Source of the DNA: Thermoplasmatales archaeon
GTDB taxonomy: Archaea > Thermoplasmatota > E2 > DHVEG-1
Assembly (NCBI GenBank): GCA_030672305.1
Contig: DAOVGR010000081.1
Span: 1-34,672 of the forward strand
DNA: 34,672 nt
Direction: 5' to 3'
Shown here: positions 1,539-28,409 of the stretch, piece by piece
Layout of the letters: every line of letters starts with the position of its first letter
How positions within the stretch are numbered: the stretch's first letter is position 1
Translations under genes and position numbers: made by a program
Notes under the pieces: generated by a model
Told to the model about the DNA's origin: nothing
Databases searched by the model: none
The model's input: only the letters and a program-made list of their open reading frames with translations

Positions 1539-1628
1539 TCTGAAAATTAATGTTCAAATTGCTAACCTATTCCCTTTTTTTATATTATAATCTTAACTCT
1601 TAAAAACCTCTTTTCCTTTTCATAAAAG

Positions 1629-2297
1629 ATGAAATGTGGAATTTTATTTTCAGGAGGAAAGGATTCTGTCTTTGCTACATATTTAGCAAAAAAATATGAA
1701 AATGAAATCACGTGCCTGATTACAATTATATCTGAAAATCCTGATAGCTACATGTTTCACACTCCTTCAATTTTAAAAGTTAAAAAACAAGCAGAAGTAA
1801 TGAACATACCTTTGCTTATTCAAAAAACAAAGGGAGAAAAAGAGGAAGAATTAAAGGATCTAGAATTAGCAATACAAAAGGCAAAAAAGGAATTTAATAT
1901 CGAAGCAATTGTCACGGGATCAGTGGAGTCTGCTTATCAAGCATCAAGAGTACAAAAGATATGCGATAAGCTTGAACTTGATTGTTTTAATCCACTTTGG
2001 CAAAAGGACCAATTTGAATTATTATATGATTTAATAGAAAACAAATTTAAAATAATTATCACAGGAGTTTTTGCTTATCCATTAAATGAAACATTGTTGA
2101 GTAGAGAAATCAATGATAAATTTATAAATGATATTAAGACATTGTTTGAGAAATATAAAATTAATCCTGCTGGGGAAGGTGGAGAGTTCGAATCCTTTGT
2201 TCTTAATTGCCCTATGTTTTCAAAAGAATTGAAAATCAAAGATTCAGAGATTTCGGGGAAAAAAAATTCTTGGAGAATGGAACTAGAGGTAATATGA
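1629..2297 (+). CDS. dph6: diphthine--ammonia ligase (Dph6-type ATP pyrophosphatase)
   Basis: 222 residues, the usual length for the archaeal single-domain enzyme. The PP-loop that binds ATP is SGGKDS at residues 8-13. The family-specific motif GEGGEFES is at 182-189, and the TGSVESAYQASR stretch is also typical. The enzyme performs the last step of diphthamide synthesis on elongation factor 2: it adenylates diphthine and amidates it with ammonia in the cytoplasm. The last four bases overlap the start of the next gene (ATGA, 2294-2297), which encodes a class I glutamine amidotransferase. The two are therefore likely translated together, suggesting glutamine as an ammonia source. No classical ribosome binding site is visible at ATG 1629, so the mRNA may be leaderless. 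Assignment is firm at the family level. Confidence 0.9.
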   Translation: MKCGILFSGGKDSVFATYLAKKYENEITCLITIISENPDSYMFHTPSILKVKKQAEVMNIPLLIQKTKGEKEEELKDLELAIQKAKKEFNIEAIVTGSVESAYQASRVQKICDKLELDCFNPLWQKDQFELLYDLIENKFKIIITGVFAYPLNETLLSREINDKFINDIKTLFEKYKINPAGEGGEFESFVLNCPMFSKELKIKDSEISGKKNSWRMELEVI

Positions 2298-2830
2298 TAT
2301 TATTAATCCAGATTTGTAATAAAAGATTTCATTATTTAGAATTCATAAAACCTATAGAAGATGTCCTGAAAAGAAATAACATAAAATTTGAATCAATTCA
2401 TTATAAAAAAGTTACAGAAGATATTATCCATAAAGCAGAAAAGATAATTATTTCTGGGACAAGTCTAAAAGATAATGGATTTATTAAGGATATAGATAAG
2501 TTCAAATGGATAAAAAAATTTGATAAACCAATTTTAGGAATTTGTGGTGGTATGCATATATTAGGACTGATTTTTAATGGAGAATTAATAAAACAACAAG
2601 AAATAGGCCTAACTTTTATAGATATAAAACAAGAATTTCTAGGATATAAAGAAAAAATTGAGGTTTATGAATTACATAATTTCTATGCTATATCAAATGA
2701 GTTTAACATATATGGTGGGTCTAAATATTGTCCTCAAGCAGTAAAACATAAAAAAAATCCTTTTTTTGGAGTGTTATTTCACCCAGAAGTTAGAAATAAA
2801 GATCTTATTGTTAATTTTGCATATTTATAA
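2294..2830 (+). CDS. class I glutamine amidotransferase, GMP-synthase-subunit-A-like
   Basis: 178 residues from ATG 2294, which overlaps the dph6 stop as ATGA. This start is better than the longer in-frame opening at 2207, which lies inside dph6 and adds unrelated residues. The nucleophile elbow is GICGG with Cys84. The catalytic His163 and Glu165 lie in LFHPEV. The oxyanion-side stretch IIISGTSLKDN matches the ISGGP region of GuaA subunits but is divergent. It would hydrolyse glutamine to ammonia. Archaea often split GMP synthetase into an amidotransferase and an ATP-pyrophosphatase, and this protein resembles the first. Here, however, its partner is a Dph6 ATP-pyrophosphatase, not GuaAB. 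It may deliver ammonia to Dph6 or serve another amidation. Family firm, partner inferred. Confidence 0.75.
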   Translation: MILLIQICNKRFHYLEFIKPIEDVLKRNNIKFESIHYKKVTEDIIHKAEKIIISGTSLKDNGFIKDIDKFKWIKKFDKPILGICGGMHILGLIFNGELIKQQEIGLTFIDIKQEFLGYKEKIEVYELHNFYAISNEFNIYGGSKYCPQAVKHKKNPFFGVLFHPEVRNKDLIVNFAYL

Positions 2831-2894: not shown

Positions 2895-5042
2895 ATGAAA
2901 AAATACATACATTTGGGAATTTTAGCTATTTTAATAATATCAACATTTTCCGCTTCTTCTATTAATACAAATACCAATCCATATACATACGTAGAAAAAA
3001 ATGGTATTGAATCTAAGTATCATGATGCTTTTAAAACATTTTTAATTGAAGGTTTAGAAGAACTAGTAGAATATAATGAAACTGGCGTTATAAAAGATAC
3101 ATACATGGTTACAATGCGTGATGGTATTAATCTAGCAACTGATGTTTATTTACCATTATTTTTTAAAAAACCATATGGCGCAATTTTTCTTAGAACACCA
3201 TATGACAAGGATGATTTACATGACCTTGGAATTCTTTTAGCTCTTGTTGGTTGGCCCACAGTTATACAGGATATCCGTGGAACTCATGCATCAGAAGGGA
3301 TTTATTCTGGTTTTAGAAAATGCCAGACTGATGGACCAGATGCCCTAGCATGGATTGGTTCTCAAGATTGGTCAAATGGCAAAGTTGCTACTGTTGGACC
3401 TTCAGCATTTGGTATTACACAGTATTTAACAGCTGGTGCAAATCCACCTGAACTTGCTTGTCAAGGAGTAATGGTTGCTTCTACCAATCTACATAAACAT
3501 GCAGTTTATCAAGGGGGAGAATTTAGAAAACAACTTGTTGAAGAATGGTTAGAAGGTGTAGATGCAACATATCTTTTAGAAGAGATATTTCTTCAGGAGA
3601 ACTATACTTTAGATTTCTGGACAAATGTATCACTTGACGATAACTGGGATAATATCAATGTTCCAGCTATTCATATGGGTGGATGGTATGATATTTTCCT
3701 CCAAGGAATAACTGATGGATTTTATGGGTATCAGCATCTTGCTGGAGCAGGCGCTAAAGGAAAATCCAAGCTTGTTATTGGCCCATGGACACATGAAGGT
3801 TATATTACATATGAACAAGGAGAATTAACATATCCTGAGAATTCAAGAAGAGTTGTTGAATTTGTTCTTATGTTTTTAGAGATGGTTAAAAAATATACAA
3901 TGGATGAAGACAATAATTTTGAGGATAGACCCGCTGTTTGGTATTATGTCATGGGAGATATAGATGTTATTGATGCACCTGGTAATGAATGGCGTTTTGC
4001 AGATGATTGGCCGATTCAAGCAGATTATGTTTCATGGTATTTTCATGAAAATGAATTTTTAAGTAAAAGCAATCCTAGCAATTATAATCCTTTATCCTAT
4101 ATTTATGATCCCACAAATCCTGTTCCAACTCTTGGCGGGCAGAATCTTGAAATGCCTCCAGGACCTTATGATCAAAGACCTATCGAGAGTAGAAGCGATG
4201 TTTTGGTATTTACAAGCGATATACTTACAGAGCCTTACGAGGCCACTGGTCCAATAAATGCAAGACTTTTTGTTTCATCTGATTGCCCAGATACTGATTT
4301 CACAGTAAAAATATCAGATGTTTATCCTGATGGAAGATCAATGCTTATTACGGATGGTATACTTCGTATGAGAAACCGTAATGGCGTTGACCATTGGGAG
4401 TTTATGCAACCCGGTGAGATTTACGAAATAGAAGTTGATATTTGGAGCACATCTTATATCTGGAATACAGGACATAGGATTCGGATAACAATTTCTTCTT
4501 CTAATTATCCAAGATTTTTAGCTAATCCAAATACTAAAGACCCAATTAATGATAATTCAACATATAATATTGCAAATAACACTCTTTATATTGGTAATGA
4601 TTATCCTTCATGTATAGTTCTTCCTGAAATTGAACAAGGACTATCAAACACTCAACCATCTAAACCAAAAAAACCTTCGGGTTTAAGACGAATAAAAGTC
4701 GATAAATACTACAAATATTCTACTACTACAACTGACCCTGACAATGATCAGATATACATACTTTTTGATTGGGATGATGGTACATCTAGTGGTTGGTTAG
4801 GACCATACGAATCAGGAAGAAAGGTAAAAGCATACCACAAATGGATAGAAAATGGAACTTATTTGATAAGAGTTAAAGCAAAAGACATAAATGGTACTAA
4901 TAGTGAATGGTCAGATCCTGTTAAGATAAATGTACCTAGAAATAGAAATGTAATAAATACACTAAATTTGAGGATTTTTCAGATATTTCCTTTTATATTT
5001 AATTTATTAAAAAATGCTAAATTTCTGGGAAAACTTTTTTAA
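2895..5042 (+). CDS. secreted S15/CocE-type serine hydrolase with PKD-like module and tail
   Basis: 715 residues with an N-terminal signal peptide (1-21). Residues 75-400 are an alpha/beta-hydrolase of the X-Pro dipeptidyl-peptidase / cocaine esterase type. The likely nucleophile is Ser170 in GPSAFG, with Asp266 in GGWYD and His300 in GPWTH, all in family order. Residues 420-575 are the beta-rich C-terminal X-Pro peptidase domain (TSDILTEPYEATGPI and onward). Residues 590-680 are a PKD-like module (TTDPDNDQIYILFDWDDG, then GPYESG and RVKAKDING). Residues 681-715 are the PRNRN-type hydrophobic tail. It probably acts outside the cell on peptides or esters; the exact substrate cannot be read. 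The nucleophile elbow lacks the common Tyr after Ser (Ala here). Two purine-rich stretches, AAGGAG and GAGGGAG, precede the start. Confidence 0.85.
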   Translation: MKKYIHLGILAILIISTFSASSINTNTNPYTYVEKNGIESKYHDAFKTFLIEGLEELVEYNETGVIKDTYMVTMRDGINLATDVYLPLFFKKPYGAIFLRTPYDKDDLHDLGILLALVGWPTVIQDIRGTHASEGIYSGFRKCQTDGPDALAWIGSQDWSNGKVATVGPSAFGITQYLTAGANPPELACQGVMVASTNLHKHAVYQGGEFRKQLVEEWLEGVDATYLLEEIFLQENYTLDFWTNVSLDDNWDNINVPAIHMGGWYDIFLQGITDGFYGYQHLAGAGAKGKSKLVIGPWTHEGYITYEQGELTYPENSRRVVEFVLMFLEMVKKYTMDEDNNFEDRPAVWYYVMGDIDVIDAPGNEWRFADDWPIQADYVSWYFHENEFLSKSNPSNYNPLSYIYDPTNPVPTLGGQNLEMPPGPYDQRPIESRSDVLVFTSDILTEPYEATGPINARLFVSSDCPDTDFTVKISDVYPDGRSMLITDGILRMRNRNGVDHWEFMQPGEIYEIEVDIWSTSYIWNTGHRIRITISSSNYPRFLANPNTKDPINDNSTYNIANNTLYIGNDYPSCIVLPEIEQGLSNTQPSKPKKPSGLRRIKVDKYYKYSTTTTDPDNDQIYILFDWDDGTSSGWLGPYESGRKVKAYHKWIENGTYLIRVKAKDINGTNSEWSDPVKINVPRNRNVINTLNLRIFQIFPFIFNLLKNAKFLGKLF

Positions 5043-6768: not shown

Positions 6769-7284
6769 ATGAATAGAAAAATATTGGGTGCCATAATTGT
6801 TTTAGTACTGATAATTGGTGCATTACCATCATCAAATTCTGAAAAGAACAATCAAGGATTTTCAAAAGAAAATCTTGAAGATAATGAAAATGTTATAAAT
6901 TATCAAATAAAAGGAAGCTATTATTTTCAAGATTATCCTGTAATGGAGGATCCTATATCTTATCCAGATATTGAAGGAGTTCCCTATCCAATTCTAGATG
7001 ATTTACCTGATGAATTTAGTTGGAGGAATTACAACGGGAAAGACTGGACAACACCTGCAAAAAACCAGGGTTCTTGTGGAAGTTGTTGGGCATTTGCAGC
7101 CTTAGGTGTACTTGAATCAATGGTTAAAATAAGAGAAGGTAATGCAGATATAAATCCAGATTTTTCAGAACAATATGTGCTTTCATGTTTACCAGAAGCA
7201 GGTAGTTGTCGTGGTGGTAGAGCATGGGTTGCACTTGAGCTTTTACAAGATGATACTCCAAGAAGAAATAATGAGAATTGTTAA
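6769..7284 (+). pseudogene. truncated papain-like (C1A) cysteine peptidase
   Basis: The first 171 residues of a secreted C1A peptidase. A signal peptide covers residues 1-24. A propeptide-like segment is followed by the mature start FSWRNYNGKDWTTPAKNQG. The active-site Cys106 sits in QGSCGSCWAF with oxyanion Gln100, and the following LSCLPEAGSCRGGRAW is also typical. The frame then ends in DDTPRRNNENC. The catalytic His and Asn, which normally lie 120-180 residues further on, are absent and are not found in another frame nearby. It cannot be an active peptidase. A tail-like fragment at 7813-7869, beyond two unrelated small genes, may be the far end of the same gene, which would make 7270-7810 replaced or inserted DNA. 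Confidence 0.75.
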
Positions 7285-19409: not shown

Positions 19410-21164
19410 ATGAAAAATAAAATTCCGATTTTAATTATTTGTATGTTGTTGATTGTTTATATTATACCTGCTTCAGGAATTGTTATAACAAATAATAAAA
19501 CCGTTTTGATTAAGGATCCTGAAATTTATCGCTTGGAAGTTAAAAATCTTGATGATGGCAGAGTTGCTCCTATTCCTGGTGACTTATCAGATGATTTTAT
19601 TTTTCAAGAAATTATTTATAATTCGTTTAAAAAATCAATACCATATGAAAGACCTTTAGGATTTAATGATGAAATCATTGTTGAAATTTTAAATCAAATT
19701 GACGAAACAATGATATTAGGTTACTTAGAAAATCTAACAGATTTTGGACCGCGAGTCACTGGAACTCCAGAATGTGCTGCAGCTGGAGATTATATTTATA
19801 ATGAATTTGAAAACATGGGTTTAGAACCAAGATATGATGCCTGGTCCTATGGTGGGTATTCTGATAGAAATATTGAGGGAACATGGAATGGTTTTAACGA
19901 GACAAGCGATGAAATATATATTATATGTGCACATTATGATAGTGTTCCTGGAAGTCCAGGTGCTGATGATGACGGCTCCGGAACTGTTGCAGTTCTTGCT
20001 GCTGCAAAACTTATGAGTCAATATCAATTTAATCATACAATCAGATTTGTAGCTTTTTCAGGGGAAGAACAAGGTCTTCTTGGAAGTCATGAGTATGTTG
20101 AAGAAGCTGTTGCAAACGGTGATAATATAATTGCAGCACTAAATGCAGATATGATTGGTTTCGCCATTACAGAAAATGATGGTGAAAATATAAAAATCTA
20201 TGAAAATGATGCTTCAGAATGGATTACAGATTTTTCCATTATTGTTAGCGAAGATTATTACAATTACATAGAACTTACACTTATTCCAAGTGGTTATTCA
20301 TCTGGAAGTGACCATCGAAGTTTCTGGGAGTTTGGTTATGATTCCATCTTTTATCATGAATACAATTTTAATGATTATTACCACTCACCACAAGATACAA
20401 TTGAAAATATGAATATTACTTATTCAACAAAGTCAACTAGATTAATTATCGCAACTTTAGGTGAACTTGCTCAAGCATACCTAATTGGTGATCCACCAGA
20501 AAATCCCAATTCTCCCGATGGTCCCACAGAAGGAACAGAAGGTGAAGAGCTTACATTTTCGACAAGTACAATAGACCCAGATGGAGATCAAATCTATTAC
20601 CAATTTGACTGGGGAGATGATAATTACAGTATATGGCTTGGACCATTTAACTCTGGTGAAACAGTTGAAGCTTCTAATATCTGGTATGAATTAGGAGTAT
20701 ACGAAGTTCGTGTAAAAGCAAAAGATATTAACAACAGAGTAAGTGATTGGTCAGAACCAATAGTAGTGACCATCAATCATAACCTACCACCAGATAGACC
20801 TACAATAAATGGACCTAAAGTTGGCAGAACTGGAAAATCTTTGACATTCTCATTTAGTGCTTCAGACCCTGACAACCATGATATATATTATTTTATAGTG
20901 TGGGGAGATGGAACTCAAAATGATTGGTATGGTCCATATAAATCAGGTGATGAAATATCTATTAATCATACGTTTACTAAGGGCGGGCGAATCTTTATGA
21001 ACGTTAAAGCAAAAGATTATTATGGCAAAGAAGGAGAGATTGAGAACTTCATATTATTCATAGTAAAAAATAGAGCAATATCAAATCCAGTATTTCTTAG
21101 ATCTATAGAACGTTTTATTGAACACTTCCCCAGATTAGAATTTTTAATAAACATGTATCTATAA
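19410..21164 (+). CDS. secreted M28 zinc aminopeptidase with two PKD-like modules and tail
   Basis: 584 residues with a signal peptide (1-23). Residues 110-350 are an M28 peptidase with all metal ligands in order: His175 (AHYDSVPG), bridging Asp187 (GADDDGSG), catalytic Glu219 and ligand Glu220 (SGEEQG), Asp247 (NADMIG) and His325 (YHSPQDT). It should release amino acids from peptides outside the cell using two zinc ions. Two PKD-like modules follow: about 365-460 (YYQFDWGDDNYSIWLGPFNSG) without a break, and 463-552 (YYFIVWGDGTQNDW). Residues 553-584 are the shared tail (KNRAIS...HFPRLEFL). The architecture resembles the S15 hydrolase at 2895, and both likely belong to the same export and attachment route. 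Confidence 0.9.
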   Translation: MKNKIPILIICMLLIVYIIPASGIVITNNKTVLIKDPEIYRLEVKNLDDGRVAPIPGDLSDDFIFQEIIYNSFKKSIPYERPLGFNDEIIVEILNQIDETMILGYLENLTDFGPRVTGTPECAAAGDYIYNEFENMGLEPRYDAWSYGGYSDRNIEGTWNGFNETSDEIYIICAHYDSVPGSPGADDDGSGTVAVLAAAKLMSQYQFNHTIRFVAFSGEEQGLLGSHEYVEEAVANGDNIIAALNADMIGFAITENDGENIKIYENDASEWITDFSIIVSEDYYNYIELTLIPSGYSSGSDHRSFWEFGYDSIFYHEYNFNDYYHSPQDTIENMNITYSTKSTRLIIATLGELAQAYLIGDPPENPNSPDGPTEGTEGEELTFSTSTIDPDGDQIYYQFDWGDDNYSIWLGPFNSGETVEASNIWYELGVYEVRVKAKDINNRVSDWSEPIVVTINHNLPPDRPTINGPKVGRTGKSLTFSFSASDPDNHDIYYFIVWGDGTQNDWYGPYKSGDEISINHTFTKGGRIFMNVKAKDYYGKEGEIENFILFIVKNRAISNPVFLRSIERFIEHFPRLEFLINMYL

Positions 21165-21305: not shown

Positions 21306-22433
21306 TTACTGTAATACATGGACGTTTTTCTTTTTACATATTTCTTTAAGAATATTTGGCCAAACAGTAACACCTACTTCGCCAAGATGAGCTTTCTTAA
21401 GAAGTAACATATATGTTCTAGATTGTCCAATGCCTCCACCTATACTAAGCGGGATTTCATTATTTATAATTGCTTGATGATATGGTAATTTCAGAAAGTC
21501 AAGTTGGCCAGACATTTCAAGTTGTGTTTTAAGTGTTTCAGGGTTAACTCTAATTCCCATAGAAGTTAATTCATGTCGTCTCTTGGTAACTGGATTCCAT
21601 ACAAGGATATCACCATTGAGACCATGCGTGGGATTTCCAGCTTCTGACACTGTTTCAGTTACCCAATCATCATAATCTGCTGCTCTCATTTCATGAGGAT
21701 AACCATCATCTAAAGACCAACCAATACCAATGATAAATACTGCTGGATAATCTTGTAATATTTCCGTTTCTCTTTGTTTTCTAGGTAACTCAGGGTATCT
21801 ATCAAGTATTTCTTCAGCATGAATAAACTTAAGTTTATCAGGCAGATTTGGGTATATATCAGTATTTAGTTTTGGGTATTTTTCAAGTAAAAAGTTTTCA
21901 GCACCTTTTAGTACCTTCCATATTTTATTTACTGTATCTTTTAGATAATCAAGATTTTTATGTTCCTCAGTGATTACTTTTTCCCAGTCCCATTGATCGA
22001 CATAGGAGCTATGATCATGGTCAAGGAAATAATCTTTCCTTACAGCGCGCATATCTGTATTTAATCCTTCACCAACTTTCATATCAAACTGTTTTAAAGC
22101 GACTCGCTTCCATTTTGTTACAGCCTGAACTATTTGAGCCTGAATTGGTTTTTCAAGTCCTAAACCACACTGAAATTCTATAGGGGTACGAGAACCATCA
22201 CGATCTAAATAATCGTTTACACCACTCTCTTCATCTACAATAAGTGGGCAAGTAACCATCATAAGATTAAGTTCTTTACATAGGTTTTGTTCTATGTACC
22301 TTTTTACATCAAAAATAGCTAGTTGTGTGTCCTTTTTATTTAAAAAAGAGTCATAATCTTTTGGTAATATTTTTTCTATTTCATTATAGTTCCCAATACC
22401 TGGTCCAGCGAGATCTGCTTTCTTATCTTGCAT
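21306..22433 (-). CDS. asnA: aspartate--ammonia ligase (asparagine synthetase A)
   Basis: 375 residues from the ATG at 22431-22433. This start is preceded by a strong AAAGGAGG; a longer opening to 22490 would translate that site and is unlikely. The sequence has class II tRNA-synthetase-like motifs of AsnA: AKWKR-type VTKWKRVALKQFDM, then SSYVDQWDWE, EMRAADYDDW, HGLNGDILVWNP and the C-terminal GGGIGQSRTYMLLL. The enzyme makes asparagine from aspartate and ammonia with ATP in the cytoplasm. It is longer than the bacterial enzyme (about 330) by an N-terminal addition (GPGIGNYNEIEKI) and an insert near residues 150-190. It is the second gene of an operon with a radical SAM protein 49 bases upstream. 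Confidence 0.9.
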   Translation of the reverse strand: MQDKKADLAGPGIGNYNEIEKILPKDYDSFLNKKDTQLAIFDVKRYIEQNLCKELNLMMVTCPLIVDEESGVNDYLDRDGSRTPIEFQCGLGLEKPIQAQIVQAVTKWKRVALKQFDMKVGEGLNTDMRAVRKDYFLDHDHSSYVDQWDWEKVITEEHKNLDYLKDTVNKIWKVLKGAENFLLEKYPKLNTDIYPNLPDKLKFIHAEEILDRYPELPRKQRETEILQDYPAVFIIGIGWSLDDGYPHEMRAADYDDWVTETVSEAGNPTHGLNGDILVWNPVTKRRHELTSMGIRVNPETLKTQLEMSGQLDFLKLPYHQAIINNEIPLSIGGGIGQSRTYMLLLKKAHLGEVGVTVWPNILKEICKKKNVHVLQ

Positions 22434-22482
22434 AATGATAAAGCCTCCTTTCCCAGGCATACAAAATACGTTATTTAAACTT

Positions 22483-23184
22483 TTACTCAAAATAGCTTAT
22501 AATTCCTTCTTTTTCTAGCCTTTTTCTTACCTTCGGATAAAGAATTATCTCTTCTACTTCAATCATTGTTTGTTCTAGATTTATATTGACAAATTGATTG
22601 ATAAAATCCTGAGAATCTTTTTTAAAAGAAACTAATGCTATATTAAAACTAATTTTTTCATCTTTTAAATTTTCAATTGCCTTAATTTGATATTCAAATC
22701 CTTTTTTTGCTCCAGTAAGAATAGAAAATTCTTCAGGATTGTTTCCTTTAAAACAAACGCGAACATGAAGATTATTAAATTTTGCTAACTCCTTTACATA
22801 TGATTTATCTTCTCCAAGCAATATGCCATTTGTTTCAAGAATGAATAAAAACCTTGATTCAATTTTTGTTAAAAGTGATAATAAATGCTTTCTTCCTATT
22901 GTAGGTTCACCACCGGATACACGCATTTGATGGAATCCTTTTTTTATCGCGATTTTTTTAAGATTATTTGCTACATGTTCTGGTGTATAAAATTGTCCAG
23001 TATTTTTAGCATTCCAAACGCTGTTTCCAGACCAACAAAATTTGCATCGAAGATTGCAACCAACGGTGTCTGCAGTTGCTATTCCTCCATAAAATCTTGT
23101 AGCTCGAAAACGATAATATTTTTTAAGGTCTCCATTTAAAACTATATCTTCGGTTTTTTTTGTAAGTTCAATTGGATGATACAT
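22483..23184 (-). CDS. radical SAM protein of unknown substrate
   Basis: 233 residues. The iron-sulfur cluster motif CNLRCKFC is at residues 43-50 (Cys43, Cys47, Cys50). The S-adenosylmethionine contact MRVSGGEPTIG follows at about residue 92, then strands FLFILETNG and LHVRVCFKG. It has no additional Cys-rich cluster domain at the C terminus, so it is a compact activase- or synthase-type member. The 'GG.AT.DTVGC' entry resembles archaeal radical SAM proteins of unknown substrate. It precedes asnA by 49 bases in the same direction, suggesting a shared transcript; a role connected to asparagine or ammonia is speculative. Cytoplasmic and oxygen-sensitive. Confidence 0.85.
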   Translation of the reverse strand: MYHPIELTKKTEDIVLNGDLKKYYRFRATRFYGGIATADTVGCNLRCKFCWSGNSVWNAKNTGQFYTPEHVANNLKKIAIKKGFHQMRVSGGEPTIGRKHLLSLLTKIESRFLFILETNGILLGEDKSYVKELAKFNNLHVRVCFKGNNPEEFSILTGAKKGFEYQIKAIENLKDEKISFNIALVSFKKDSQDFINQFVNINLEQTMIEVEEIILYPKVRKRLEKEGIISYFE

Positions 23185-23821: not shown

Positions 23822-25189
23822 CTAACTTTTCTTATATCCACCAATTTCTAAACTTGGATCTCCTAGCAATACCCATTCCTCAACAGATTTTGCATCAATA
23901 GAAGAAACACTACCTGCAGGAGACTCCCAATCTATTGGAAATGTTTCAACAAAGCCAGATAGGGTATCTTTCCAAATCTGTCCAAGCGTTCTTGTTCCAT
24001 TATTATATTCTCTAAAGAAGTTAACATTTAGCCAATCTGATCCACCACCACCATATTCAATGCCATACCAACATAATCCAGTTGATCCAATTGTCGCAAT
24101 TGAGCCGCCACGTTGGTTGCTAACTAAAAACCAGCTCCAACATCCAAGGCGCCATGTCTGAAAACTCCCAGGTAGTAATATGGTTTTTCTAAGGTTATTA
24201 TTAGCTAAGTCAAAGTCACTATTATGGCACCCACCAACAAGGCAGATCGGAAGTTTATATCGATTAAATAAAAATAGCATTTGAAACCTCCCAAATCTAC
24301 CTACATATGAACCAGATGGCGAGTAGGTTATCCAGGTATGTTTGCTTCCATGACCAGACAAATATAGAAATCCACATCCTTTATTAACCGCCTGAATTGT
24401 ACTTAAACCATATTTGGATAACGTATCTGTTGAAGCCCAGAGTTTTACAGGAATAAAATCTTTCATCTCATCGATTGCTAGTTGATTATATATCTCTCCC
24501 TCATATCCTGCAAATTCATCATATGTATCCCCACCAATAACAACCATTTTTTTAAACCAAGAATCATCAGCGAGTTGTTTTTCGTAGTTTATTATCTTCT
24601 CCAATACTGTTCTAACTTCTTTTGTGTTCAGGCATGCAAGTCTTCCTAAACATACATCAGGTTTTAAATCAATAGATTTATCCTCAGCTTCACTTCCTTT
24701 CCACTCACCAAAAATTCCATCATCATCTGAATCCCAACTGGAAAAATTATAATTCTTATCATAGATATCTGCATAATATAAGTCGCTAACAAACTTGTCT
24801 TCTACACCATACATATCATTATTATAGCAATATCTAACAGGTATATCTTTAGAACTCCCAACCAAAATTACATATGTAATTTCCCAATTTTCAATGGCAT
24901 CTTTTATGAAAAATTTAATTTTTTCTTGATCATCACGACCTTGAACTTCAAAATATGTACCATCATAGATATCATCTAATGAAATAAAAAATGTTATAAT
25001 TCCTAGGTTGTTTTTATGTTGTATAAAAGTTTCAAGAGATGAACTAAATCCTGCTGGAGCAATTATTATCATATCATATTTATCATTTTTTATTGTATTG
25101 TAATTATCTACATTTGCACTTACAAAAATAGACCCAACTATTGAAAAAACCATTATAAAAAACACTGTATATGTAATCATATTTTTCAT
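23822..25189 (-). CDS. secreted gingipain-like C25 cysteine peptidase
   Basis: 455 residues from ATG 25187-25189, supported by AGGAGA ten bases upstream; a longer opening to 25255 lacks such a site and spoils the signal peptide. Residues 1-25 are a signal peptide. The catalytic dyad is His280 in LSGHGS and Cys321 in VGGCHNSDFD, both at family positions. Upstream, YDMIIIAPAGFSSSL and VILVGSSKDIPVRY mark the first caspase-like subdomain. The end, EEWVLLGDPSLEIGGY, is the normal C25 end, so this enzyme carries no propeller, PKD-like module or hydrophobic tail. An acidic loop DSDDDG near residue 170 may bind calcium. It should cleave extracellular proteins. An insertion sequence lies 140 bases upstream of the start. 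Confidence 0.88.
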   Translation of the reverse strand: MKNMITYTVFFIMVFSIVGSIFVSANVDNYNTIKNDKYDMIIIAPAGFSSSLETFIQHKNNLGIITFFISLDDIYDGTYFEVQGRDDQEKIKFFIKDAIENWEITYVILVGSSKDIPVRYCYNNDMYGVEDKFVSDLYYADIYDKNYNFSSWDSDDDGIFGEWKGSEAEDKSIDLKPDVCLGRLACLNTKEVRTVLEKIINYEKQLADDSWFKKMVVIGGDTYDEFAGYEGEIYNQLAIDEMKDFIPVKLWASTDTLSKYGLSTIQAVNKGCGFLYLSGHGSKHTWITYSPSGSYVGRFGRFQMLFLFNRYKLPICLVGGCHNSDFDLANNNLRKTILLPGSFQTWRLGCWSWFLVSNQRGGSIATIGSTGLCWYGIEYGGGGSDWLNVNFFREYNNGTRTLGQIWKDTLSGFVETFPIDWESPAGSVSSIDAKSVEEWVLLGDPSLEIGGYKKS

Positions 25190-25209
25190 AATTCTTCTCC
25201 TGTGTTTTG

Positions 25210-25230
25210 TATATAGTGTGTTTCTATATA
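25210..25230 (-). promoter_or_regulatory. 7-7-7 inverted repeat before C25 peptidase gene
   Basis: TATATAG (25210-25216) and CTATATA (25224-25230) are perfect arms separated by seven bases. The site is between the ribosome binding site and an A/T-rich TATA region of the minus-strand gene. A possible operator; the low sequence complexity makes it uncertain. Confidence 0.35.
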
Positions 25231-25331
25231 TAAATATATTTAATAAAAATATCAAAGAAAAATATCTGCATAAATAGTCAGTTAATTCACAGCTAGATTT
25301 TCTAATTTATATGATAAATAAAAAATTGGAC

Positions 25332-25367
25332 TGAACCCCTGCCAGCGGACAGATAGTTAAGTTAACA
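25332..25367 (+). repeat. left terminal inverted repeat of IS3 element
   Basis: 36 bases from TGAACCCC to GTTAACA. The stop codon of the transposase OrfB (25357-25359) lies inside it, a compact arrangement usual for this family. Confidence 0.8.
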
Positions 25368-26244
25368 TATTTATATTTGCCTCCTGCTCGAAAGCTTCCG
25401 GTGATTTATATCCAAGCGATGAATGTAATCGTTTTTTGTTGTACACATCATCGATGAATCTCCCAATATTTTCTAATGCATCAGAGAATGTTTCATATTC
25501 ATTGAGATACACCTCTTCGTATTTCAATGTCTTAATGAAACTTTCAACAAAGGCATTATCATATGGATTCCCCTTTCTACTCATGCTGATCTGAAAATTG
25601 TGTTCTTTCAGACGGTCAACATACAAATTAGAAGCATACTGAACTCCTCGATCAGAATGATGAATGATGCCCGGCAAGTCAGGGTTCCATCGATGTTTTA
25701 GAGCTTGTTCAAGTGCAGAAAGTGTCAATTGCGTGTCAATATGTCTACCAAGTTTCCAACCGATACATCTCCGAGTGAAAAGATCCAACATTACAGCAAG
25801 ATACACGAATTCATCTGCTAGTTGAATATAGGTAATGTCACTTGCCCAAACCTGATTGGGCTGTTTAATCTCCCTGTTTTTTATCATATTTGGATATACC
25901 TTATGATCATGATTTGAATCAGTGGTGAGAGGCTTAAAATGCTTCTTTACGCAGAGAAGATTGTCCTCTTGCATCAATCGAAGAACCCGTTTATGATTGA
26001 CATGATATCCTCGATTATAAAGCTCAATAGTCATCCTTCGATAGCCATATCTTGGAAACTCAATTGCTATCTTTTGCATCTCATTTTTAATTCTCATTTC
26101 AACTCTAACTGAACCAGGATCCGAGTCAGGTTTCTGTAACCATTCATAGTATCCGCTCTTACCAACATTAAGCATCTGTATTGCATTTGATACTGGGAGA
26201 AAATCATCTGAATCAAGCTGTTGTTTTATTATCATGTATTTCAC
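25357..26244 (-). CDS. IS3-family transposase OrfB (DDE integrase domain)
   Basis: 295 residues from the first GTG. The frame is open further upstream to at least the A7G run at 26300-26307, as expected if OrfB is made by frameshifting from OrfA. An HTH_21-like region (PRYGYRRMTIELYNRGY) precedes the rve integrase core. Catalytic residues are visible: Asp in WASDITYIQ, Asp in HHSDRGVQYAS, and Glu in NPYDNAFVESFIKTLK. The end KKRLHSSLGYKSPEAFE is the standard IS3 ending. The protein cuts and joins the element's ends. It appears complete. Confidence 0.92.
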   Translation of the reverse strand: MKYMIIKQQLDSDDFLPVSNAIQMLNVGKSGYYEWLQKPDSDPGSVRVEMRIKNEMQKIAIEFPRYGYRRMTIELYNRGYHVNHKRVLRLMQEDNLLCVKKHFKPLTTDSNHDHKVYPNMIKNREIKQPNQVWASDITYIQLADEFVYLAVMLDLFTRRCIGWKLGRHIDTQLTLSALEQALKHRWNPDLPGIIHHSDRGVQYASNLYVDRLKEHNFQISMSRKGNPYDNAFVESFIKTLKYEEVYLNEYETFSDALENIGRFIDDVYNKKRLHSSLGYKSPEAFEQEANINMLT

Positions 26245-26927: not shown

Positions 26928-28349
26928 CTAGTAACCATTCAAACTTTTCTGAAATCCTTTTCCTGTCCAGCAATATAAACATAGTTTATTTTTAGGCAGA
27001 CCAATTGCTTCAACCATATCATCTATTAGTTGATATCTTAAAGAAGTTACACCTAAATCCTTACCTATCCAATCAATCATTTTGTGATATTTCTCAGTTT
27101 TTGGATTCAAATATTCAGAAACATCCTCAATATCTTTTCCTTCCAGTGCCCTTATTGCTTTTCTAGCAGCAAGTTCTTTAGTACTTCTTGTTGAGAGATT
27201 ATAAATACATGGAAATATCAAAGGTGGACAAGCAGGTCTTACATGAACCTCCTTTACACCGGCTTTTTTTAATTTTGTGATTGTAAAATTTTTCAGCTGT
27301 GTTCCGCGAACAATGGAATCCTCACATAAAATAATTCTATTATTCTTTGCAATTTCATCATTTGCAATTAATTTCATTAAAGCTATTTTATCCCTAACAT
27401 CTTGAGATAATGGAGTGTAGCTTCTACCATAACCTGGAGTATATTTAACTAAAACACGTCTAAATGGTTTTCCAGAATGCATAGCATAACCGATAGCATG
27501 GCTAGTTCCTGAATCTGGAACTCCTGAAACAAGATCAACTTTTACATTGTCTCTTTTTGCTAAAAACATACCACAATTTTCTCTTACCTTCTCAACATTG
27601 ATTCCTTCATAAGAAGACGCAGGAAATCCAGTATAAATCCATAAAAATGCACAAATTTTATTATCATTTCTACCTTCTTTTTTCATCTCAATGCCCTTTT
27701 GACTAAGAAAAACAATCTCCCCAGGCTCAATAAATTTCTTAAGGTCAAAGCCAAGATTTGGAAATGAGCATGATTCACTTGTAACAGCTACCGAACCATT
27801 TTTTTCTGCAATGACTAATGGAGTAACACCATTTCTGTCTCTTGCACAATAAATCCCATCTTTGGTTAATAATAGCAATGACACAGATCCAATAATCTTA
27901 TCATACATCTTTTCAATTCCTTCAACAATGGAATCTTCTTGATTTATAAGATGAGCAATAAGTTCAGTTGAATTAGTCTCACCTCGATCTAATTCACTAA
28001 AAGAAATCCCTTTGTTAATCAGCATATTTACTAATTCATCTTTGTTAGTAACAAGTCCTGCACAACATATTGCAAAAGGTCCAAACTTACTTTCAAAAGT
28101 CAGAGGTTGAGGATCTTTATCAGAAATTACTCCAATACCTAGATTACTTACAATTTTATCAGAGCCCTCATAAAATTTTGATTTAAACTGTGAATTTCCA
28201 ATATCATGTATCTTTTTTACTGGTATTCCGTTCTCATCGAAAAAAGCTATTCCACCAAACTCAGTTCCTAAATGACTATGGTAGTCAGTTCCATAATATA
28301 AATCAGAAATACAATTATCATTACTTACTATACCAAATAAACCGCTCAT
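26928..28349 (-). CDS. amidophosphoribosyltransferase (PurF)-like protein lacking the N-terminal Cys
   Basis: 473 residues from ATG 28347-28349, behind GGGGG. An upstream TTG is less likely. The N-terminal half has the Ntn glutamine amidotransferase fold (SGLFGIVSND, HSHLGTEFGGIAF, ARDRNGVTPLVI). The second half is the phosphoribosyltransferase with the PRPP loop IILCEDSIVRGTQ at about residues 338-350. True PurF starts MCG, and the Cys becomes the N-terminal nucleophile. Here residue 2 is Ser, and the next Cys is at residue 12. It therefore probably cannot hydrolyse glutamine in the normal way. I recall a PurF-like subgroup beginning MSG-FGV, so this is likely a paralogous family and not a mutation. 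Its reaction is unknown; it may use free ammonia. Confidence 0.8.
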   Translation of the reverse strand: MSGLFGIVSNDNCISDLYYGTDYHSHLGTEFGGIAFFDENGIPVKKIHDIGNSQFKSKFYEGSDKIVSNLGIGVISDKDPQPLTFESKFGPFAICCAGLVTNKDELVNMLINKGISFSELDRGETNSTELIAHLINQEDSIVEGIEKMYDKIIGSVSLLLLTKDGIYCARDRNGVTPLVIAEKNGSVAVTSESCSFPNLGFDLKKFIEPGEIVFLSQKGIEMKKEGRNDNKICAFLWIYTGFPASSYEGINVEKVRENCGMFLAKRDNVKVDLVSGVPDSGTSHAIGYAMHSGKPFRRVLVKYTPGYGRSYTPLSQDVRDKIALMKLIANDEIAKNNRIILCEDSIVRGTQLKNFTITKLKKAGVKEVHVRPACPPLIFPCIYNLSTRSTKELAARKAIRALEGKDIEDVSEYLNPKTEKYHKMIDWIGKDLGVTSLRYQLIDDMVEAIGLPKNKLCLYCWTGKGFQKSLNGY

Positions 28350-28409
28350 TAGTACCCCCAATAATCTGAAAATATTATGCCGTATTTAAAAATTATTAAT
28401 TATTAAGAT

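Follow-up and report, generated by a model that had tools for sequence, protein, structure and literature searches.

Background

Archaeal Dph6, the diphthine-ammonia ligase, is usually called ammonia-dependent, and human Dph6 works without helper domains. For the stand-alone archaeal proteins PH1257 and PF0828, which represent the same enzyme as the Dph6 described here, we know of no glutaminase partner. Accessory domains with a suggested role in ammonia generation occur as fusions to Dph6. In a few archaea, Methanohalophilus, Methanosalsum and Nanosalinarum, AsnB-type class II glutaminase domains are fused to Dph6 and were proposed in 2012 as its ammonia source (PMC3541065). These fusions unite the class II domain, an extra Asn-synthetase PP-loop domain and Dph6 in one chain, and the recipient of the ammonia is ambiguous. 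In eukaryotic Dph6 of yeast and plants, RidA/YjgF domains, members of an imine deaminase family, were likewise proposed to feed Dph6 (PMC3541065), and yeast Dph6 function needs the RidA domains (PMC3585130). A separate class I (triad) glutaminase adjoining a PP-loop ATP-pyrophosphatase is known from the archaeal two-subunit GMP synthetases of M. jannaschii and P. horikoshii, in which the ATPase partner amidates XMP. Loading of the ATPase triggers the glutaminase, the association of the subunits is only transient in some species, and without the glutaminase the ATPase accepts external ammonia (PMC10526850). Helix 1 of the glutaminase and a residue just past the triad contact the ATPase and switch the glutaminase on (PMC10526850).

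Here, we describe an archaeal gene pair of Dph6 and a class I amidotransferase. In contrast to the AsnB-type fusions, the partner is a triad enzyme and a separate subunit, Dph6 is the sole ATPase of the pair, and unlike the RidA domains the partner belongs to a glutaminase family. The initial annotation had presented a glutamine-dependent Dph6 as a departure from known enzymes. No paper on a class I partner was found in the full-text literature, a corpus with subscription journals mostly outside; the idea of a glutaminase for Dph6, however, dates from 2012 (PMC3541065), hence the class I pair is a new variant of an existing idea.

The Dph6-amidotransferase gene pair

The window, a stretch of 34,672 nucleotides from a Thermoplasmatales archaeon, encodes on the plus strand a Dph6 of 222 amino acids (1629..2297) and directly 3' of it an amidotransferase of 178 amino acids (2294..2830). 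Stop and start of the two genes overlap in an ATGA at 2294..2297, as previously read from the sequence, and this overlap suggests a translational coupling of Dph6 and the amidotransferase. The amidotransferase frame runs from the ATG at 2294 to the stop at 2830; an alternative frame of 207 amino acids merely takes an upstream in-frame TTG as start. About 40 nt upstream of the Dph6 start, the TATA-like stretch TTTATATTATA (1579..1589, plus strand) was judged by eye to be a putative archaeal promoter element.

The assignment of the first gene to Dph6 was upheld. The protein scored 263.5 bits against the archaeal Dph6 model TIGR03679, above the curated cut-off of 197.3, and 209.7 bits against PF01902. 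Its PP-loop reads SGGKDS, and residues 184-189, EGGEFE, correspond to the EGGE/D-x-E motif that marks Dph6 and not to the ENGE-F/Y-H motif of the B12-salvage group (PMC3541065). Relatives in the PDB are 2d13 (E 1.6e-49) and 3rjz. No further PF01902 protein was present in the genome. From this family membership, ATP-dependent diphthine amidation is predicted for the protein.

The second gene product matched PF00117 with 64 bits (cut-off 22.8) and combines the features of a class I amidotransferase: the nucleophilic cysteine in a G-x-C-x-G context, a His-Pro-Glu motif and the GATase fold. The nucleophile Cys84 lies in GICGGMH (codon 2543..2545, plus strand), and His163-Pro164-Glu165 are encoded at 2780..2788, with His163 at 2780-2782 and Glu165 at 2786-2788. 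The triad has thus the positions given in the initial annotation, and Cys, His and Glu as well as the C-x-G and H-P-E contexts were invariant in all 17 family members, among which the identity to the window protein drops to about 29 %. Such a conservation suggests glutaminase activity. An AlphaFold2 model built with 16 sequences was confident (pLDDT 94.6, pTM 0.92), and its top matches among solved structures were GMP synthase subunits A with a TM of about 0.8.

Three regions hold invariant residues that distinguish the Dph6-linked family from GuaA. Helix 1 carries the motif E-F-(V/I)-x-P at residues 16-20 (2339..2353, plus strand), in which E16, F17 and P20 were invariant in the 17 proteins; GuaA shares the glutamate alone. 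After helix 1, in the oxyanion-strand region on the nucleophile side, the family has G55-T56-x-L58-x-D60 in place of the GG-x-P of GuaA. Behind the triad, the alignment of the 17 proteins shows HPEV-R167-N168, compared to HPEV-E-H-T in GuaA. By analogy to GMP synthetase, where the ATPase is contacted at helix 1 and just past the triad, family-specific residues at these sites would be expected for a different ATPase partner. Another histidine, His128, was conserved in 16 family members and absent from the member of the second phylum.

Distribution and linkage of the pair

A family profile built from ten amidotransferase homologues was run on 618 genomes, of which 390 belong to the phylum of the window and 228, relatives of a Heimdallarchaeote, to a second archaeal phylum. 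Sixteen of the 390 genomes had a family member, separated by a clear score gap: family members reached at least 193 bits, GuaA and other proteins at most 84 bits. The second phylum contributed one family member in 228 genomes, with 165 bits. In all 17 genomes holding the amidotransferase gene, it was located directly 3' of Dph6, a linkage and co-conservation of glutaminase and ATPase genes as expected for a two-subunit PP-loop synthetase; 16 pairs had a 4-nt overlap (ATGA or GTGA) and one a short gap. The linked Dph6 was in each case the sole PF01902 protein of the genome, and across the 618 genomes the family profile revealed no amidotransferase copy away from Dph6. With its recurrence in every genome that has the second gene, the pairing is not due to chance. 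The outer neighbours of the pair, named by eye from their sequences, varied between lineages, thus inheritance of a syntenic block does not by itself explain the linkage. The initial annotation had named a pairing confined to the genome of the window as a refutation; the pair was, however, present in 16 further genomes, which belong to several families and two phyla. These figures stem mostly from draft assemblies and from the two archaeal phyla sampled. The contig that carries the pair of the second phylum measures 7.5 kb and belongs to a draft genome; it may be a product of mis-binning, though it holds the only Dph6 of that genome.

Natural fusions of Dph6 and the amidotransferase were not observed; the large frames inspected, of up to 1286 amino acids, were frame artefacts. 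A plasmid collection yielded no linked pair, its only match being the GuaA of Borrelia, and scanning contigs for short peptide patterns gave nothing but a GuaA from a Heimdallarchaeote, whose genome led to the second phylum. In loci L048-L052 and L018 (family f13), a gene for an RlmE/FtsJ-like methyltransferase lies directly upstream of the pair, forming a translation-related cluster of three genes.

The paired genomes of the phylum encode the other components of diphthamide formation: Dph2 and Dph5 in 15 of 16 each, and EF2 in all 16, with the modifiable histidine (IHRGPAQ) in each of the 15 EF2 genes that cover this stretch. For the genome of the window, Dph2 (306 bits), Dph5 (340 bits) and an EF2 with IHRGPAQ were found. 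The pair works therefore in cells with the whole pathway.

Dph6 clade history and loss of the partner

A phylogenetic tree of 86 Dph6 sequences placed every paired Dph6 in a single clade (support 100/99), together with five unpaired members; the Dph6 of the second phylum, once added, stayed inside this clade. The majority of the Dph6 proteins from the window's own family fell outside of it. Pairwise distances of Dph6 and amidotransferase across the 17 genomes were correlated with r 0.81, a value reached in none of 5000 permutations, although a correlation is partly expected from shared descent.

Two unpaired loci of the clade document the loss of the partner. In G033, a member of the clade, the downstream neighbour known from the window is kept and the amidotransferase is cleanly absent between it and Dph6. 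In G011 (locus L124), a fossil of the amidotransferase, FHPEVRNKKLIERF, remains some 40 nt downstream of the Dph6 stop codon. When 85 short stretches downstream of Dph6 were searched, this fossil matched a family member with an E-value of 5.5e-4 and 75 % identity across 16 residues. It still carries HPEVRN, the C-terminal motif specific to the Dph6-linked family. Thus, the amidotransferase was repeatedly lost while Dph6 stayed, and at least part of the Dph6 clade descends from an ancestor with the pair. A loss with retention of Dph6 fits an ammonia-supplying subunit that free ammonia can replace. The amidotransferase is not essential to the reaction, since most archaea and five sampled members of the clade have Dph6 alone. 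Several Dph6 positions separate paired from unpaired proteins, C120, N122, Q126, P152 and others. As interface residues these were rejected: they are mostly retained where the partner was lost and thus mark the clade.

Alternative functions of the amidotransferase

GMP synthase subunit A is the closest named family by sequence and by fold, as the initial annotation had recognized, and a few paired genomes lack a full GuaA subunit A; the second gene could therefore encode the GMP synthase glutaminase or a back-up for GMP synthesis. According to the initial annotation, the absence of a separate GuaA subunit A would have refuted the Dph6 partnership, but the genome of the window clearly has one, with 219 bits to TIGR00888 (cut-off 172), adjoining the gene of the GMP synthase ATP-pyrophosphatase on a contig other than that of the window. 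Separate genes of this genome read as CarA, PyrG, PdxT and PurQ. Against a curated GuaA subunit A model with a cut-off of 198, the window amidotransferase reached only 65.3 bits, and the best of 16 family members had an E-value of 1.1e-22. The phylogenetic tree split the Dph6-linked family and GuaA subunit A with 100/100 support, and helix 1 and the residues after the triad are unlike those of GuaA. Among the 16 paired genomes of the phylum, GuaA subunit A was above the cut-off in 11 and present as fragments in two more, while the remaining three are assemblies of 78-81 % completeness. A role in GMP synthesis was consequently rejected as extremely improbable.

A glutaminase may also serve another pathway, producing ammonia or cleaving a gamma-glutamyl compound, with the link to Dph6 confined to co-transcription or translational coupling. 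Ammonia is diffusible, gamma-glutamyl hydrolases are among the related triad enzymes, the gene can be lost, and coexpression alone could explain the linkage. We regard this as unlikely in view of a linkage that held in every genome despite changing outer neighbours, the lack of an orphan copy among the 618 genomes, and the correlated distances of the two proteins. Even less probable is a reuse of the glutaminase fold without catalysis, as a scaffold for Dph6 or as its regulator. Yeast employs an accessory protein, Dph7, in the last diphthamide step (PMC3585130), and the altered oxyanion-strand motif GT-x-L-x-D would agree with a loss of catalysis, but a scaffold would hardly have kept triad and motif contexts invariant at such a low overall identity.

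Proposed glutamine-dependent diphthamide synthetase

We consider it likely that the pair encodes a glutamine-dependent diphthamide synthetase, with Dph6 as the synthetase subunit and the amidotransferase as the glutaminase subunit. The amidotransferase is very probably a dedicated partner that would feed ammonia to Dph6, much like in GMP synthetase, with which it shares the fold; the partner is here Dph6 instead of an XMP-amidating ATPase, and the motifs EFVxP, GTxLxD and HPEVRN are its own. In the proposed reaction, Dph6 would use ATP to adenylate the carboxylate of diphthine on EF2. This loading would activate the bound amidotransferase, otherwise inactive as in the archaeal two-subunit GMP synthetase, and glutamine would be hydrolysed via Cys84, His163 and Glu165. 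The ammonia would pass to the acyl-adenylate on Dph6, probably in a complex that is possibly transient. A physical complex, ammonia channelling and a gating by loaded Dph6 are thus suggested by the parallel. Free ammonia would still serve Dph6, and the amidotransferase would be a helpful, but losable subunit. Points against this reading are the lack of natural fusions, the missing His128 in the second phylum and the retention of most clade-marking Dph6 residues after loss of the partner.

For a wider scenario we have a cautious preference: a previously unnamed glutaminase family joined Dph6 early in one archaeal Dph6 clade to form a two-subunit, EF2-triggered, glutamine-dependent synthetase, the gene pair was passed across lineages, the glutaminase was lost repeatedly, and the nitrogen source of diphthamide may thereby switch between glutamine and free ammonia in the course of evolution. 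As a dedicated and losable glutaminase, the amidotransferase offers a simple two-protein system for testing glutamine-driven Dph6, and the gating of a class I glutaminase by a protein substrate, EF2, can be tested. The pair bears also on the recruitment and loss of glutaminase subunits. The annotation of these proteins, with GMP synthase subunit A as nearest named family, would be corrected.

Other genes in the window

The minus strand of the window encodes AsnA (aspartate-ammonia ligase, 283 bits), the ammonia-dependent asparagine synthetase, in a gene overlapping that of a radical SAM protein (21306-23184). Free ammonia is thus evidently usable in the cell, and the presence of AsnA counts against a need for a glutaminase-fed Dph6, as ammonia is evidently not absent. 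A protein of 477 amino acids with a class II GATase_7 domain and without an Asn_synthase match in Pfam (26928-28361, minus strand) is possibly a divergent AsnB. Between its gene and that of a C25 peptidase, a transposase/integrase (rve, HTH_21) is encoded at 25357-26244 on the minus strand. Peptidases of four families, S15, C1, M28 and C25, are encoded in the window at 2895-5042, 6769-7284, 19410-21164 and 23822-25255, and several genes code for PKD domains. Together, the four peptidases and the PKD-domain genes suggest a protein-degrading lifestyle.
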